The notes below the pieces were generated by a model. That model did not search any database, was not told the origin of the DNA, and saw only the letters and a program-made list of their open reading frames with translations. This document shows positions 14,414 through 44,449 of a DNA stretch of 64,000 bases, one piece after another. The stretch comes from Umbilicaria muhlenbergii. Lineage: Eukaryota; Ascomycota; Lecanoromycetes; Umbilicariales; Umbilicariaceae. Within the stretch, counting starts at the first letter, position 1. Each line of letters opens with the position of its first letter. The position numbers and the translations under genes are program-made. Location: the NCBI GenBank assembly GCA_000611775.1, contig KK106986.1:1054001-1118000 (forward strand), written 5' to 3'.

Positions 14414-15343
14414 TCATCCTACGGCGCACATTGATTCTTCCAGCTTCCGTTCGAAGGACAACACTGCTGCAGTTTCGCGTGAGATCTCTTCCTCACGGAG
14501 GTGCATACTAACCCTACACCTCTTCAATCCGTGTACTTGCAGCAGCGGTTTCACCCAACCCAGCTCAAGGTTACAATCGGCGGCAGTACCGACTGTCAGC
14601 TTTATCCGGAGGTCGACAAGGCCACTCATTCCGTGCGAAACAACGCCCCAGAAAGTTTCCCACAAGTTATTTTCGTACTTTGCCTCCCCTCCCCTACTGG
14701 GTGGAAGTGCCGAGTTCAGAGGCAGTTTCCGCAAATGCCAGACTATTTGCAAATGATTAACCGCTGCCAGACGATGGGCAGGTATAGCCCTCGAAAAGTC
14801 GATCAAGGTCCATAAATTGTTCACCGAAAATGTGTTGTCAATGTAGAGCGTTTCGACAGCCTCCATATAGACTTGGCGGCATGTGCCAAGAATGCCAACA
14901 ATCGACGGCCCGAACCCTCCAAACGCCTTCTCTTCAGCGGATATGTTCTGCCTCGCTTCAGGAATGCAGCAGCAAAGGCGAGATATCTCGAGCGAAGAGC
15001 GGCATTGGACATGACCCAAACTCCGGGGCATTGAGAGAAGATGGATTCGCTTGCCGCCGAGAACGTAGTTGTAGATTTTCAAGCGAAGCTCGGCGGGGAG
15101 ACTCAGCAGAGGGGATTGCGCGTTGAGCTTCGGATCGAACGAGGTGGAGAGACTTCGACGTTTCTGAGGTAGCGGTTTGGGTTTATTGGCCTTTCTGTGT
15201 TTCTTTCTTGCTCGGAATGCCTTCTCCGAACGAGGGTGCTGGCGCCGGTACGAAACATACCATAGAAGGTAACAGGGAAGCCATAACGGGATAGTAAGGC
15301 ACACACAAGACGTACACAGGCATTGGCAGACATCAATGCCCAT
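14414..15343 (-). CDS. DUF7730 (F-box-like) domain protein with acylation-type N-terminus
   Basis: Single exon of 309 aa. From about residue 76 the protein reads PLLSLPAELRLKIYNYVLGG, an F-box-like helix pair, followed by ILGTCRQVYMEAVETLYIDNTF. This is the core of the DUF7730 family found in many copies in Dothideomycetes and of unknown function. The first 30 residues are unusual: MGIDVCQCLCTSCVC, then a hydrophobic stretch (CLTIPLWLPCYLLWY), then Arg-rich sequence. Gly2 followed by Cys6 fits a myristoyl/palmitoyl anchor, and the hydrophobic stretch could be a membrane segment, so the protein may sit on a membrane. Family assignment is from recall of motifs. Confidence 0.75.
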   Translation of the reverse strand: MGIDVCQCLCTSCVCLTIPLWLPCYLLWYVSYRRQHPRSEKAFRARKKHRKANKPKPLPQKRRSLSTSFDPKLNAQSPLLSLPAELRLKIYNYVLGGKRIHLLSMPRSLGHVQCRSSLEISRLCCCIPEARQNISAEEKAFGGFGPSIVGILGTCRQVYMEAVETLYIDNTFSVNNLWTLIDFSRAIPAHRLAAVNHLQIVWHLRKLPLNSALPPSRGGEAKYENNLWETFWGVVSHGMSGLVDLRIKLTVGTAADCNLELGWVKPLLQVHGLKRCRVSMHLREEEISRETAAVLSFERKLEESMCAVG

Positions 15344-15919
15344 GATGCTTGGGGACTGGGTCTAACGTCCTGTTGTCCTTTTCAACCGACGATTGAGACT
15401 GCAAAGGCAGTCAGGACGGCGATGGGCGGATATTGCATCTCGGATGTAGACGATCAGCGGACGGAGTTTGATTGGAGAATGGGCAGGCTGTTCAGCCTGG
15501 CTCGGCGTCACAGTATGCCTTGCAGTAAGGAGACGGGAATGTTTCCGATCAGATGGTTGCAGCCTTGCATTAACATAAGGGTGGCGTGGACGGCATCCTC
15601 AGGCATAAGCGTCGCGCACGCACGGGGCACCTCCGTGGGACGGACGGACTGAGGCTGAGGAGCTCGCCAAGGTAAGCACGCAAACAAGATTGGCTCAGTG
15701 GGAGCGACGCGCAGAGCCGCACCTTCATCCTTTCGTCATTTACCACAATTTGATCTTAACTTTGGAGCTTTTGTAGAAAAGCTTACCTTGTAGCTTGGGC
15801 TCTAAATTGATACTTTACTACTCCGAGTACAACTGAGCTGTTTCATTTTATCAGCCTTCTCTCTTTGACTCTCCTCACGACCCGCAACGACGAAGTCCCC
15901 CAGATGCTGATCAATAACA
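15344..15919. promoter_or_regulatory. Divergent intergenic region
   Basis: A 576-bp gap between the starts of the DUF7730 gene (-) and the UsgS-like gene (+). It should hold both promoters; no clear element was recognised. Confidence 0.4.
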
Positions 15920-36992: not shown

Positions 36993-38759
36993 ATGTTCCG
37001 TGCCTTGATTCCCAGAGCGACGTCAAGGTTTGTCGTCAGACCATTGAAGACTAGCTCTTCGAGCGCATTCGCCCCCCCAAGCTTCTATGTCGTCAACAGA
37101 TCGCGGAGGGGATATGCTTCAGAAGCCCGTGAGCAGAAGATCTGTCTCGGAACACCGCAGTAAACCGTGCTGACATGGAGCAGAGGAACATGATTTGGTC
37201 ATCATCGGTGGAGGCGTTGGGGGTTACGTCTCAGCAATAAAAGCAGGGCAAGAAGGCTTGAAGGTATGGCGTGTGTCTGCAGCATTGCTACATGACTATC
37301 AGCTAAGCATATCCTGCGTCTCTAGGTCGCCTGCATAGAAAAGCGTGGTGTTCTGGGCGGGACCTGTCTCAACGTTGGCTGCATACCCTCAAAATCTCTC
37401 CTGAACAATTCGGAACTCTATCATCGGATTCTGCACGATACTAAAAAGCGGGGCATAGAGGTTGGCGAAGTCAAGCTCAACTTGGATCAGATGATGGCGG
37501 CAAAGAACACATCAGTAGACGGTTTGACCAAAGGTGTGGAGTTTCTGTTCAAGAAAAACAACGTGGAATACGTAAAAGGCACTGCTGCATTCTCGGGCGA
37601 GCACGAAGTCAAGGTCAATCTAGTCGATGGCGGGGAGCAAACGTTGAGAGCGAAGAATTTCATTATTGCTACAGGAAGTGAGGCGACGCCATTCCCAGGG
37701 CTGAAGATAGATGAGAAGAGGGTTGTTACCAGTACAGGGGCCATAGCACTGGACAAGGTACCAAAAAAGATGGTGGTGATTGGAGGTGGCATTATCGGAC
37801 TGGAGATGGTGCGCCACTTTTCCAGGAATCAGTACTAGAATACCATCACTGACGAAATCTATTACAGGGTTCCGTCTGGACGCGATTAGGCGCTGATGTC
37901 ACAGTCGTTGAGTTCTTAGGGCAGATTGGGGGGCCAGGAATGGATGCTGAAATATCCAAAATGACCCAGAAGATTCTCACGAAACAAGGCATGAAATTCA
38001 AGCTTAACACCAAAGTACTAAGCGGAGATGACAGCGGAGAGACACTTAAGCTCAAGACGGAAGCTGCTAAAGGCGGAAAGGAGGAGACGGTAAGCATCAG
38101 CTACTCTGCGATTCTGGGTCCAACCTAATAAACGCACCTAGCTCGAAGCGGACGTCATCTTGGTAGCTATCGGTCGTCGCCCATACACCGCTGGTCTTGG
38201 ACTTGAGAACATTGGTCTCGAAGTCGATGAGAAAGGGCGTCTGGTAATCGACCAAGAGTACCGGACCAAGCTTCCCCACATCCGCGTCGTCGGCGACTGC
38301 ACTTTTGGGCCCATGCTCGCGCATAAGGCCGAAGAAGAAGCCGTCGCGGCTGTTGAATATATCACAAAGGGCTACGGCCATGTCAACTACAACGCCATCC
38401 CCTCAGTCATGTACACACACCCTGAAGTCGCATGGGTAGGCCAAAACGAGGCAGAACTTAAATCCCAAGGAGTCAAGTACAAAACCGGCAGCTTCCCCTT
38501 CAGCGCGAACTCAAGGGCCAAGACGAACTTGGAGACGGAAGGTATGGTGAAGTTCTTTGCGGACGCGGAGACGGATCGAATATTAGGCATCCATATCGTT
38601 GGACCGAATGCGGGAGAGATGATTGCGGAGGGAGTGTTGGCGATCGAATATGGAGCAAGTTCGGAGGATGTGGGTAGGACGAGTCACGCGCATCCAACGT
38701 TAGCGGAGGCGTTCAAAGAGGCTGCAATGGCGACGTATTCGAAGGCTATTCACTATTAA
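36993..38759 (+). CDS. lpd1: Dihydrolipoamide dehydrogenase, mitochondrial (E3)
   Basis: Exons 36993-37128, 37184-37263, 37326-37808, 37868-38089 and 38142-38759; 512 aa. The first 40 or so residues ([20 protein letters not shown]) are an Arg-rich mitochondrial presequence. The FAD-binding site is [18 protein letters not shown]. The redox-active disulfide lies in GGTCLNVGC (C86 and C91). The NAD-binding site is [14 protein letters not shown]. The catalytic His-Glu pair is H491 and E496 in [11 protein letters not shown]3 reoxidises the lipoyl groups of the pyruvate, 2-oxoglutarate and branched-chain dehydrogenases and the glycine cleavage system. Length and motif order are exactly as expected. 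Confidence 0.97.
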
Positions 38760-39050
38760 GCGCGGGGATGACGGCAGGTTGAAGAAAGGGATTGTGAATA
38801 AACACCTGTAAAGTATTCCCGCTTTTAAAAATATGTCAGCCTGGTTGGGGCAATGGATGCAATTATGGCAATTCACTGGCCCTGGTAAGAGTCATCGCTC
38901 GTCGATCCAACCACACTAAAACTATTGATAATGTGGCTACCCGCATCTCAGGTACATCTCGATTCCATCACAGATCTAGTTTCAGATTACACAACTCTTC
39001 TCAGGTCGCATCAGTCCTCGGCTTGCTTATTACGTTCAGATCTCTCCAAT

Positions 39051-39479
39051 ATGTGCGACGTCGACCACGGCTTTTGCAGCACATGCTGCAAGAGCGGCTA
39101 CACACTCCGCAAAATGTGCAGGGCCGGCAAAAAATCCAAGAAGACCTGTAACCCTTCTTTTTGTGTGGCTCATAAAGTGACCGAGAAGAACTGGCTTTGT
39201 GCGCGATGCGTGCATACAAAACAGAGGAGAGAGGCAAAGGAGATACTCGAGAAGAAATTGCGGATGGAGAGGATGGAAAAGATGGAGAAGGTCAGAAAGG
39301 CTATGGAAACCAGAAAGGCCGTGGAAAATAGGACGCAGAAGATGGAGAAGGTCGAAAAGGTTACAGAGACCGGAAAGGGCGTGGATGAGGTCGCTGCAGA
39401 GACCAGGAAGGGCATGGGGGGTATCAGAAATGGCATAGCAATCAGAAAGGCCATGGAGATTAAGAGATTGGTCAATTAA
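39051..39479 (+). CDS. Seven-cysteine-pattern protein, copy A (unknown function)
   Basis: Intronless, 142 aa. I do not recognise a named family. The N-terminus has MC (C2), CSTC (C9-C12), single Cys at 23 and 33, and CARC (C50-C53), plus extra C13 and C38. Copies B and C downstream have the same pattern at nearly the same spacing, which suggests a small zinc-binding fold. After the second CxxC the protein is a charged helix with repeated short Lys/Glu/Arg/Met units (KMEKV-type), perhaps a coiled coil. No signal peptide starts at this ATG. An in-frame ATG at 38931 would give a longer form, but the shared MC start favours 39051. Confidence 0.6.
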   Translation: MCDVDHGFCSTCCKSGYTLRKMCRAGKKSKKTCNPSFCVAHKVTEKNWLCARCVHTKQRREAKEILEKKLRMERMEKMEKVRKAMETRKAVENRTQKMEKVEKVTETGKGVDEVAAETRKGMGGIRNGIAIRKAMEIKRLVN

Positions 39480-39970
39480 GAGGACCGGAAAAGTCGTGGA
39501 GACTCGGGATGTCTCCGAGGTGGGGAGGCATTGGTGAATGATTGAATCACGCTGGTATCCGGTGTGGGTGGGAGGTCGGTCGAGTGCGGAAACGATGGGA
39601 GCCGGGGCAAGAATGTTTGTTGTTCGGTGACGGGGGTCTCTGCATGGACTCCATGAAGGGCGCGGCAAGAGGGTGCAGATTTAAGAGCAGGCAAGTATGT
39701 CAGGAGGGAGCGAGTCTTGTGAGCAGTCGAGTGAAGGCATAGGGAAGGAGCGACTTTGTTTAAAGAATCGTGTGAATTTGGGCAGGAAAGGACCATCGGG
39801 TGCTCTCCAGCCTCTTTACTAAGGATGGGCGGCTCTATCTCTTGTTTGATTCCATTCTTACAGTTACACCATTCTTATCTTTTTGTATGCGCCGGTTGTC
39901 CTTGTATCAACTACGCAGCCGTGCACATTCGCATGTTTATCTTGCTCCTTTAGCCCTTCGCTGCACCGAT
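39480..39970. other. Intergenic region between copies A and B
   Basis: A 491-bp gap between two members of the cysteine-pattern cluster. No gene or clear repeat was seen. Confidence 0.45.
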
Positions 39971-40807
39971 ATGTGCATCTCCACATCCACCAATTTATCC
40001 TGCTTCCGCTGCCACAACCCCATCCGCCTGGTCATCGAGCGGTGCCACCGCTCCCGCACCGGCTCTTGCACCACCCCTCAAAGCATAGGACTATCTTTCG
40101 GCCCAGACTGGGTCTGCAGTCAATGCCACAAGCAGGCCATGGAATGGCTAGGCCCGGAACTAGAGAGAATGGAAATCACACTGAAGCAGGAACAAGACTC
40201 ATTCGACGCCAACGCTCTGCGAATCCCCCCACAAGAGCGCTACCACATCGCCGCGACGTTGACCACGAGGAGGAACGCTTGTCGAAAGTACCGCGCGACA
40301 CTAGACCAAGTCAACGCTATTGCAGCATGGCAACGAAAGGCTGATGAGGCAGACGAACCCCTCTACGAGGAAAACCGCATCATTACCGCCGAGGAAGAAG
40401 CGTTTCTAGTACACATATTCGGTGCCGAAGTCCTCCGCTCGTCAATCGCACTCGAGACAGCTCTGAGGGGCTTCGAAGCTCTACGCTTGATGCGAGATAT
40501 CCTGGACCCTGGATGGCGAACCCAGTACTCCAAATTGGGAACTCTGGGCACGCCGGCCGAGCTGGAGTACTGGGAGGCCCGGAATGATATCTGGCGTGAG
40601 CAGCGCATTCAGGAGATTCTTGAGACAGGAGTCACGGATGAGATTCATCTTGCGGAAGATCTTGAGGATGCATTGGCGAGGGTGATCGATGAGGCGATGC
40701 GGGATGTGGCGAGGAGGGCGCGGGATATGTTGCGGATGAGGAGGTGTGCGAGGCGGTTTGAGGGGAGGCGGGAGCGTAAGTTGATGGCTAGAAATATGGG
40801 GCTCTGA
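39971..40807 (+). CDS. Seven-cysteine-pattern protein, copy B (unknown function)
   Basis: Intronless, 278 aa. N-terminal pattern: MC (C2), CFRC (C11-C14), C25, C33, CSQC (C49-C52) preceded by a Trp-Val pair. The rest is an all-helical, charged domain of over 200 residues (for example PELERMEITLKQEQDSF, RNACRKYRATLDQV, RIQEILETGVTDEIHLAEDL, ending in Arg-rich sequence). I know no named domain for it. The first part aligns with copies A and C in cysteine spacing, the long helical part does not. The ATG at 39971 is chosen because it gives the shared MC start; the frame is open further upstream. Confidence 0.65.
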   Translation: MCISTSTNLSCFRCHNPIRLVIERCHRSRTGSCTTPQSIGLSFGPDWVCSQCHKQAMEWLGPELERMEITLKQEQDSFDANALRIPPQERYHIAATLTTRRNACRKYRATLDQVNAIAAWQRKADEADEPLYEENRIITAEEEAFLVHIFGAEVLRSSIALETALRGFEALRLMRDILDPGWRTQYSKLGTLGTPAELEYWEARNDIWREQRIQEILETGVTDEIHLAEDLEDALARVIDEAMRDVARRARDMLRMRRCARRFEGRRERKLMARNMGL

Positions 40808-41453
40808 TTTGAAGGTGGTGAAGTTGGTCTTGGGTCACACAGCACGTGTTGTTCGAGTTCCAGGCACCTATTTCAGGGTCTGTTTGGGTAGTGAATGCTG
40901 TTTGGATGCGTCATATTTAGAATGACCAAGCACACTAGGTTATGTTGGGGCACTGGGAAAGGTTTCGAGCTTTTGCTACTCGATTACGTTGTCTTGCGAA
41001 GGACTGCTGGACAGACTATGTTAGATTACATCAATATTTCTTGAATAAGAATCCTTTCCTTCCCATGTTCCTCTTGCTTGGGCTCTCCCAAGCCTTAGTG
41101 TTCTTTTGACTGTTGAGTCTGCTGTTCCCTAACAAAGGCTGTCGAGGGTGATGTGGTCTCGACGTGTCGTAATCATATGAGGTACAATTCAAAGACACTG
41201 ACTCCCAACCAGCGCATGAGTCAACGGTTCACTGGAATGTTCAACATGACTACATGAGAACATGGACGCTTATAAAATTGGACCGCGCTCTTCTCCGCCC
41301 ACCATCACTACCTCCAGTCCACAAACCGGCAAGGACCTCTACTATACTCCCACTCCCCAGAAGCCCCTACACTAACTCTAAAATAACCACGTCAACAACA
41401 CCATCCTCTCCACCAGGCCATCTTCAACGCATCTCCTCCCGGAGACCCCCAAC
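40808..41453. other. Intergenic region between copies B and C
   Basis: A 646-bp gap. A TATAAAA sequence lies at 41271-41277, about 180 bp upstream of the start of copy C. No gene seen. Confidence 0.45.
41271..41277 (+). promoter_or_regulatory. TATA-box-like sequence upstream of copy C
   Basis: TATAAAA, 177 bp before the ATG at 41454. This is a plausible core promoter element; it could also be chance. Confidence 0.35.
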
Positions 41454-41912
41454 ATGTGCGAGCTGAGCGGCAGAAGATGCCAAACCTGCAACAGGGTATG
41501 GGTCATAAACGAGCCCGAGATCATCTGCAATGACGCCCGCAAGAACGGAGCCTTATGCAACCCATCGCTTACACTCGTCATGCAAAGGGAAAACGAGCCT
41601 CTCTGCTTCGATTGCGCGGTCAAAAGGGCAGAGGCTCGTGAGAGACAGGTGAGTAGAACAGCAGGCGCTCACGCTAAAGTCGCAAAGCAACATATTGAGA
41701 AGTGGCTGCAAACTTGCCCACCCAAAGCGGAAGCAGGACTAGGGCTAGGGCTAGGATCGGGATCGGAAGTGAAAAAGAAAGCAGACAGTGCCAGACCTAG
41801 GGTAGGAGTCCTCCAGAGTCTGGGAACCAGGGTGGAGTCTCCAAAGAAAGCGGAAAGGGAAGAAGACAGCAAGAAACTCAAGACAGAAGTGGAGCATCAA
41901 GCGGCAAACTAG
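41454..41912 (+). CDS. Seven-cysteine-pattern protein, copy C (unknown function)
   Basis: Intronless, 152 aa. N-terminal pattern: MC (C2), CQTC (C9-C12), C25, C35, CFDC (C51-C54), with spacings close to copies A and B. The region after the second CxxC is basic and helical (AVKRAEARERQV), as in copy A, and the C-terminal half is a low-complexity Lys/Glu/Gly tail that includes LGLGLGSGSE. No signal peptide or membrane segment. Function unknown; a zinc-binding head with a variable charged tail is the best description. Confidence 0.65.
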   Translation: MCELSGRRCQTCNRVWVINEPEIICNDARKNGALCNPSLTLVMQRENEPLCFDCAVKRAEARERQVSRTAGAHAKVAKQHIEKWLQTCPPKAEAGLGLGLGSGSEVKKKADSARPRVGVLQSLGTRVESPKKAEREEDSKKLKTEVEHQAAN

Positions 41913-42093: not shown

Positions 42094-42555
42094 TCAATAT
42101 CCATGTCCGTACGCGGCATAGTGCGGATCAATCATACGCCTCCCACTCGCCCCCGGATAATGCATCCCATGCCCCCCAATCCCATACCCATGCCCATGCC
42201 CAAGCCCCCTCGACCTCGACCCATGCCTACTCGACCGATGATGTTCCGGCACGGGATGGTAGCCGCCGCCACTAACTCATCAGCTCCGTTCATCCACATC
42301 TCACATCTCCATAATTCAAACAACTTACTATCCGCCACTGCGCCCACCGACATACCCATCATACCCCCGATAGCCGGATTCGTAGCTGTTATGGTGCACA
42401 GGCATTGGACGAGTCCCGCAGTACGGTGCTCGCAAGCTTTGCCGGTAGGAGCTGCGGTCGTAGGCTGGTGCGTAGCCGCCGCCGCCGACATAGTCGACGT
42501 CTTCGGCGTAGCCGATGGGGAGGCGGGGTTCGTATGGGTAGCCTTCGAAGGCCAT
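42094..42555 (-). CDS. Small Gly/Tyr/His-rich protein
   Basis: Exons 42555-42329 and 42271-42094; 134 aa. The first exon reads MAFEGYPYEPRLPIGYAEDVDYVGGGG in short pieces rich in Tyr and Gly. The intron (42272-42328, 57 nt) has GTAAGT and GTTAG ends. Splicing brings in a second exon that continues the same composition (GGGYHPVPEHHRSSRHGSRS, GHGHGYGIGGHGMHYPG, ending YAAYGHGY). The continuity of composition across the join is the main support. No family is recognised; the protein is likely disordered. Opposite-strand open frames overlap but lack support. It is convergent with copy C, 181 bp away. Confidence 0.6.
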
Positions 42556-43368
42556 CGTGCCAGGTAGTGGCTGCTGGATATGGTTGGTTAAACGAGGTCA
42601 GGTGTAGTGGATCTAAAACGGATGCAGCTCTAATAGCGAGTGTGAGCGTAAGAAGGTGGGGCGATGCGGAGCGAATGTTCGATCCTTCCCGTGGAGGAGG
42701 AGATGTCTTTTTATAACCCGCTGGCGCAGCAGTTCGTGACCCAGCAGGCTGGTGACGGTCTGTGTTTGCTGGCATGCATCGTACATGGACGAACAAACTA
42801 AAACTGAACCTAAGTCAAGCGTTCTGGAAGCAGAAAACGGGCCAATGTAAGCAGAGCGAGAAAACAGCATATTGGGGATGGAATTGTCAGTTGAATTGGT
42901 CATCCTGACTGATCGAGTTTGCGGGCGGGCAATCTTTGTATCACGACAAGCGATGATCGAGTTTGCTTCTATGCACCATTCCGTGGCGACCATCTGCTCC
43001 GATTGCGAGTCTGGAAAGGCTCTTATCGCTTGGGAGTCGGGAAACGGTAAGGCTTTTGTAACTGTTAGGGTTGAGTCTTCATTGGATTCGACGGACTGCT
43101 GCATTATTACATGTTTAGTTGACAGCTAAGGAGATCTCCTCGAGAATGAGACCGGCTCAAACAACAACGATAAAATAGTCCGAACTATGCTTGTAAAGCG
43201 ACCGCCCAATAATGCAAACTCCCCCGTAGCGCGTTAAACTTTCAACCCCTTCATGTACAAATTGTGATAGTCCTCTAAAAACGCTGTTAGCTCGTTGCAG
43301 GCGTGGAATTGTATGGTTCATCACCTTACAACCCGCAGCATCCAGTCGGTGGCGACCAATTACATGAA
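42556..43368. other. Intergenic region between the GYH-rich gene and the RTA1-like gene
   Basis: Promoter side of the Gly/Tyr/His-rich gene and 3' side of the RTA1-like gene. Open frames here show no similarity; no gene called. Confidence 0.4.
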
Positions 43369-44449
43369 CTAGACTTTCGTCAATTCAATCTGGTATTCAT
43401 AGAGGGTTTCTTCAGTCTTCGCTGACTCCGGCACAACAAGGAACCAAGCAGGATTGATGATATTGTAGACGATCACGGCCGCAGCCATCATAGAGCCATC
43501 AAAAGCGATAAAGTACCGTTCATGAGTAATGAGGAATCCCTTCCAGCCTTGTAAAAGCTCCATGGTTCGATAGACGGATCGGACGTAAATCAGCACCACA
43601 GCGAAAGCCGTCGCCGCGATTGTCAAGCGCAGACCTTTCGACAGACGTACATTTCTTGCGCGAAAAAGAATGTAGCTGAATAGAGCGCAGAAGACAGTGA
43701 TGGACGCCATTTGGAATAGTATACCGCCGATCATGATGTTGGTTCCGGGCTTGGTATCTCCATTCACCTTGTTGTCTTGGGCGGAGGCATGCCCGCCACC
43801 AATAGCCTGAATAACTATGGAGAGCAAGTCGCAGGTAGAGAATATCAAGAGGTAGCGCTTGGGGCTGAGGGGTGAGCTTTTGGGACCGAGGATTGGGATC
43901 AGTCGGCCAAGGATTACGTAGCAGCCTGCAGTAAAGAAGCAGGGGGCTGTAGAAAATCCCACTGTATCAACAGAGGGTCTAACTAATAGGACGTAGCAGA
44001 GCCGGCCAAAGCGATAGTGGATTGGATTTTTGCTATTACTAACCAATGATGAGGGTCGAGATTTGCATGAGAAATGCAGTCTGATTATACGGACATTTCG
44101 CAGACCATGTTCTTGCTGCCCAGCCGAGCAATTCAGCTGTTGAGCACAAGGTCGTGCATTAGCCTATGTAGACGTCCGGTACACAAGGAGACGGAGAAAT
44201 TTCCAGAGAATAATAGCATTACATACTGAGGGCTCCAACTGCGAAAACGCACTGCCACCATTGACGTTTCCAGACAGTTTGCACGGTATGTAGTAGCATC
44301 GAACCTCCAAACAGTACGACAAAAAGAACCCCAGCTGTGAGCGAAGGTCGATAGCCGTATGAATCTCTAAACCTAGAGTTCCATGCCACACATCCAATCC
44401 GGCGGTCGAGCATGTTGACTGTGGAGGCGCTTGAGAAATGGATATGCAT
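43369..44449 (-). CDS. RTA1-like seven-pass membrane protein (lipid-translocating exporter family)
   Basis: Exons 44449-44227, 44136-44044 and 43961-43369; 302 aa. After a short N-terminal part comes YGYRPSLTAGVLFVVLFGGS, then GALTELLGWAARTWSAKCPY, FFTAGCYVILGRLIPILGP, RYLLIFSTCDLLSIVIQAIG, and RSVYRTMELLQGWKGFLITHE, all hallmarks of the RTA1 family. Seven hydrophobic segments are evident. Yeast members (Rsb1, Rta1, Pug1) move or protect against sphingoid bases, 7-aminocholesterol or porphyrins; the substrate here is unknown. The two joins restore conserved motifs (GAL/TELLGW, TLIIVG). The C-terminus is a short cytoplasmic tail. Confidence 0.88.

Follow-up and report, generated by a model that had tools for sequence, protein, structure and literature searches.

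Three adjacent plus-strand genes of Umbilicaria muhlenbergii encode proteins with a Met-Cys start and a common layout of seven cysteines in their first 52 to 54 residues, followed by tails that differ from copy to copy. We read them, with a probability of about 0.5, as intracellular proteins in which a small zinc head carries a helical adaptor tail, and which would have arisen partly by an old tandem duplication within a housekeeping region.

Three adjacent genes share a layout of seven cysteines

The cluster lies in a 64-kb stretch of DNA (C6:1054001-1118000; the window) of a 34.8-Mb genome in seven contigs, with genes that resemble those of filamentous ascomycetes. The three frames of the original prediction are all open on the plus strand and encode 142 aa (gene 1, P0001; 39051..39479), 278 aa (gene 2, P0002; 39971..40807), and 152 aa (gene 3, P0003; 41454..41912); we call the genes intronless from their open frames alone. 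Cysteines occupy positions 2, 9, 12, 13, 23, 33, 38, 50, and 53 in gene 1, positions 2, 11, 14, 25, 33, 49, and 52 in gene 2, and positions 2, 9, 12, 25, 35, 51, and 54 in gene 3, giving nine cysteines in the head of gene 1 (residues 1-53) and seven each in the heads of gene 2 (1-52) and gene 3 (1-54). The Met-Cys start and the seven common cysteines are found at the predicted positions in all three translations. Two cysteines of the gene 1 head beyond the common seven, Cys13 and Cys38, had been left out of the prediction. Past the head, gene 2 contains Cys104 and Cys259 and gene 3 contains Cys88. The cluster observation as a whole is thereby confirmed.

The tails had been described as charged, which fits in part: those of genes 1 and 3 are basic, with net charges of +11 and +8, and the long tail of gene 2, helical in a low-confidence model, has a net charge of -5. 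The gene 1 tail contains a degenerate internal repeat of three 56-nt copies (39270..39457, plus strand; the later copies are 80% and 64% identical to the first, at spacings of 60 and 72) and probably grew through internal repetition.

The layout is rare. Patterns describing it match three places in the window, the trio alone, and none in the 20 flanking 10-kb stretches (one of which, L006, contains 484 N), in a scan that covered the window and 200 kb of flanks, 264 kb in all. Ten more kb from each of C1, C2, and C3 gave no match either, nor did 60 order-2 Markov windows of 64 kb or 35 Mb of order-3 Markov sequence; the patterns were designed after the trio had been seen, and these counts gauge the rarity of this layout, not the number of other layouts that might have been noticed. 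The seven-cysteine layout in the trio is far above chance.

The neighborhood of the cluster is an ordinary housekeeping region. Upstream are encoded a MIF4G/MA3 protein and a pyridine nucleotide-disulphide oxidoreductase, which ends at 38759 and, judged from its position and sequence, is dihydrolipoamide dehydrogenase. On the other side lies an RTA1-like gene (43369-44163, minus strand), and beyond it are a phosphoglucomutase-family gene and a fatty acid desaturase.

Directly downstream of the cluster, a Gly/Met-rich frame of 151 codons (42135-42587, minus strand) has no Pfam match at E 0.01. A 315-aa frame elsewhere in the window (14417-15361, minus strand) matches DUF7730 with E 2.4e-35. The 5S rRNA genes of this genome are dispersed over C1, C4, C5, C6, and C7, with at least 15 matches, at least 13 of them above the cut-off. 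A scan with bacterial promoter and terminator models, which are inapplicable to a fungus, yielded about as much as shuffled sequence.

Genes 1 and 3 resemble each other beyond the cysteines

In a single BLASTP comparison, gene 1 matches gene 3 with E 0.001 over 66 columns. Their alignment scores 74; shuffles in which Met and Cys were held fixed average 30.1, and 0 of 2000 reach the real value. When all seven cysteines were anchored, the real score was reached by 1 of 5000 shuffles. The pieces common to the two proteins include Met-Cys, Cys-x-Thr-Cys, and Cys-Asn-Pro-Ser. To judge from these alignments, the homology of genes 1 and 3 extends past their cysteines and the two are tandem duplicates; the duplication is old, since no long DNA repeat connecting the three genes was found and the tails have only 15-base matches between them.

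Gene 2 gave E 0.059 over 31 columns against gene 1 and E 3.5 against gene 3 in BLASTP. Its real scores against genes 1 and 3 are reached by 619 and 911 of 2000 shuffles with fixed cysteines and by 1757 and 2006 of 5000 anchored shuffles. Similarity beyond the cysteines is present for the pair 1-3 and absent for the pairs 1-2 and 2-3, and gene 2 is tied to its neighbors through layout and adjacency only. The proposal of one tandemly duplicated family is therefore borne out by genes 1 and 3, which agree in the residues between the cysteines, but not by gene 2, whose residues do no better than shuffles.

These results leave some room for gene 2 being unrelated to genes 1 and 3, its layout having arisen by convergence or within a separate branch of some broad class of Met-Cys heads, a possibility that we regard as unlikely. 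It would account for the lack of residue similarity beyond the cysteines, for a tail composition unlike that of genes 1 and 3, and for the behavior of a composite query, built largely from genes 1 and 3, that retrieved these two genes and missed gene 2. However, gene 2 is on the same strand and sits between the two duplicates, and its seven cysteines follow the same order at similar spacing, in a layout absent from 35 Mb of simulated sequence. Gene 2 is probably a third, more diverged duplicate.

A fourth Met-Cys frame on another contig

When the trio's heads and full proteins were each used to search the genome, the only good match was the query itself, and one such search also returned a weak place on C2 (E 1.47). 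These empty searches are no proof of absence because gene 1 fails to find gene 3 in the same way. A query invented to represent the general layout found, with E 0.412, a 68-aa frame with a Met-Cys start (P0004; C1:4220055-4220258, or L030:1453-1659, minus strand), a discovery that was not blind, as the query had been made up to have the layout of the trio. Another invented query gave E 4.4e-5 and added nothing new, and two others had no match in the genome. Partial matches in L032 (E 1.25) and L035 (E 0.0286) were dropped, their translations lacking the head layout.

The candidate ligands of P0004 are Met-Cys, Cys11-x-His13, Cys22, Cys34, and Cys50-x-x-Cys53. The frame fits a broad pattern that had been fixed before its discovery and that has no match in the 35 Mb of simulated sequence. 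Comparison of P0004 with the trio heads by hhalign gave a probability of 1.0 percent, which is not significant. In anchored shuffles the real score was reached in 145 of 5000 cases against gene 1 and 419 of 5000 against gene 3, weakly above shuffles, and in 2434 of 5000 against gene 2, which lends no support.

Unnamed small Met-Cys proteins of filamentous ascomycetes carry the succession Cys-x-His, Cys, Cys, Cys-x-x-Cys. Set beside these, P0004 has the seven positions of the trio in the same order and at similar spacing, but differs from the trio in its third position, a His that makes Cys-x-His of the first Cys-x-x-Cys, and in its tail of 15 residues. Its layout suggests that P0004 may belong to the same wide class as the trio. 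The frame beside it (L030:2298-3074, minus strand) presumably encodes a Gcn5 histone acetyltransferase with a bromodomain.

The heads may resemble zinc fingers and match no named family in the libraries searched

The original prediction knew no named domain with this spacing, and searches against Pfam, NCBIfam, and PDB sequences placed the trio in no family. The best Pfam-A matches remain below their cut-offs for gene 1 (PF19379, 17.2 bits vs 22.8), gene 2 (PF14522, 16 bits vs 24.8), and gene 3 (PF19720, 14 bits vs 26.6), and P0004 has none at E up to 0.01. NCBIfam, a library meant for bacteria and archaea, gave no family above cut-off for any member of the trio when E values up to 10 were allowed. 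Among PDB sequences, neither gene 2 (best E 0.092) nor a profile built from the three heads (best E 0.098) has a significant match. Weak matches to Cytochrome_C7, paired CXXCH, DUF5954, and PHD-finger, which fall short of their cut-offs or have E values of 0.0032 to 1.4, were rejected as chance effects of composition or of Cys-x-x-Cys. Pattern stretches in viral contigs (3) and prokaryote genomes (593), both poor places to look for a fungal family, yielded 0 confirmed relatives, and no literature title naming the seven-cysteine layout was found, which for titles only is no proof of absence.

The structures predicted for genes 2 and 3 are poor (mean pLDDT 56.8 and 49.3), and both draw on the trio's own three sequences. 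Both low-confidence models place two short strands before the last Cys-x-x-Cys and a long helix at that pair, and this order of strands followed by a helix is known from treble-clef fingers. Neither model had a Foldseek match with an E value of 0.001 or below; with the limit relaxed to E 10 there were 108 for the gene 2 model and 4 for the gene 3 model. Treble-clef and zinc-ribbon fingers likewise have two Cys-x-x-Cys pairs, the second at a helix start, where our low-confidence models also place it. In those fingers, however, four cysteines are enough per site, whereas the trio has three more in common, including Cys2 beside the start Met, and matches no Pfam family at cut-off.

Among 12-residue segments that begin within the first 25 residues, mean hydropathy peaks at 0.46, 0.89, and 0.66 in genes 1, 2, and 3; by this simple measure, which is not a signal-peptide predictor, the Met-Cys forms have no strongly hydrophobic N-terminus. 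Zinc ligands typically show Cys/His exchange. We take zinc binding as most likely because the Cys-x-x-Cys motifs are paired, P0004 exhibits a Cys/His exchange, and a hydrophobic N-terminus is absent. A role of the cysteines in disulphides or redox chemistry instead, as known from secreted cysteine-rich proteins, is improbable: the proteins are small and rich in cysteine, with nine in the gene 1 head, but secretion is at odds with the N-termini of the Met-Cys forms (for gene 2 the start at 39971, not that at 39887), and disulphides are at odds with the odd cysteine count of the gene 2 and gene 3 heads (seven each) and with two Cys-x-x-Cys pairs that have a Cys-x-His variant.

Zinc binding, the fold, the adaptor role, and the origin of gene 2 are all inferred, and the arrangement that we propose is as follows. 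The first ~53 residues would fold like a treble clef or a ribbon around one or two zinc ions; the first Cys-x-x-Cys would sit on a knuckle, and the long helix that opens the tail would begin at the second. Cys2 and the two single cysteines could complete a second site or brace the first. In this view the head would act as a compact module that binds protein or nucleic acid, and each copy would owe its own partner to its tail; an adaptor role is suggested because the compact head bears a different tail on each copy.

Start codons and coding evidence

Upstream of Met-Cys, gene 1 (at 38931) and gene 2 (at 39887) each contain a single additional in-frame ATG and gene 3 contains none, so that the Met-Cys start is a choice in two of the three genes. 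Codon use scores +0.039, +0.034, and +0.013 bits per codon for the whole of genes 1, 2, and 3 and -0.146, -0.184, and -0.095 bits per codon for their heads alone, and synonymous codon use is slightly positive in all three heads. Support from codon use for the coding of the trio is weak. That at least one frame is a decaying or non-translated copy, with variable tails that are drifting sequence, would fit these scores, the degenerate repeat in the gene 1 tail, and the upstream ATGs, but is quite improbable given that 3/3 frames are open and that the seven cysteines were kept while other residues changed, which drift would not do.

Implications

The trio looks like a modest, undescribed protein family with no known function; we call it modest because the genome has a similar layout at another place and gene 2 matches by layout only. 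It is a long shot that the Met-Cys start is itself functional, with Met removed and the sulphur and free amine of Cys2 joining the six other cysteines to make eight donors for a two-zinc site. Were this so, the head would respond to N-terminal processing or oxidation of Cys2 and would constitute an undescribed fungal switch placed on many tails. Should the layout turn out to define a single zinc-binding family in which the Met-Cys start is conserved, proteins that are unnamed in the libraries searched would gain a name and a fold, and the head would be one preserved by its cysteines alone while all else changes.
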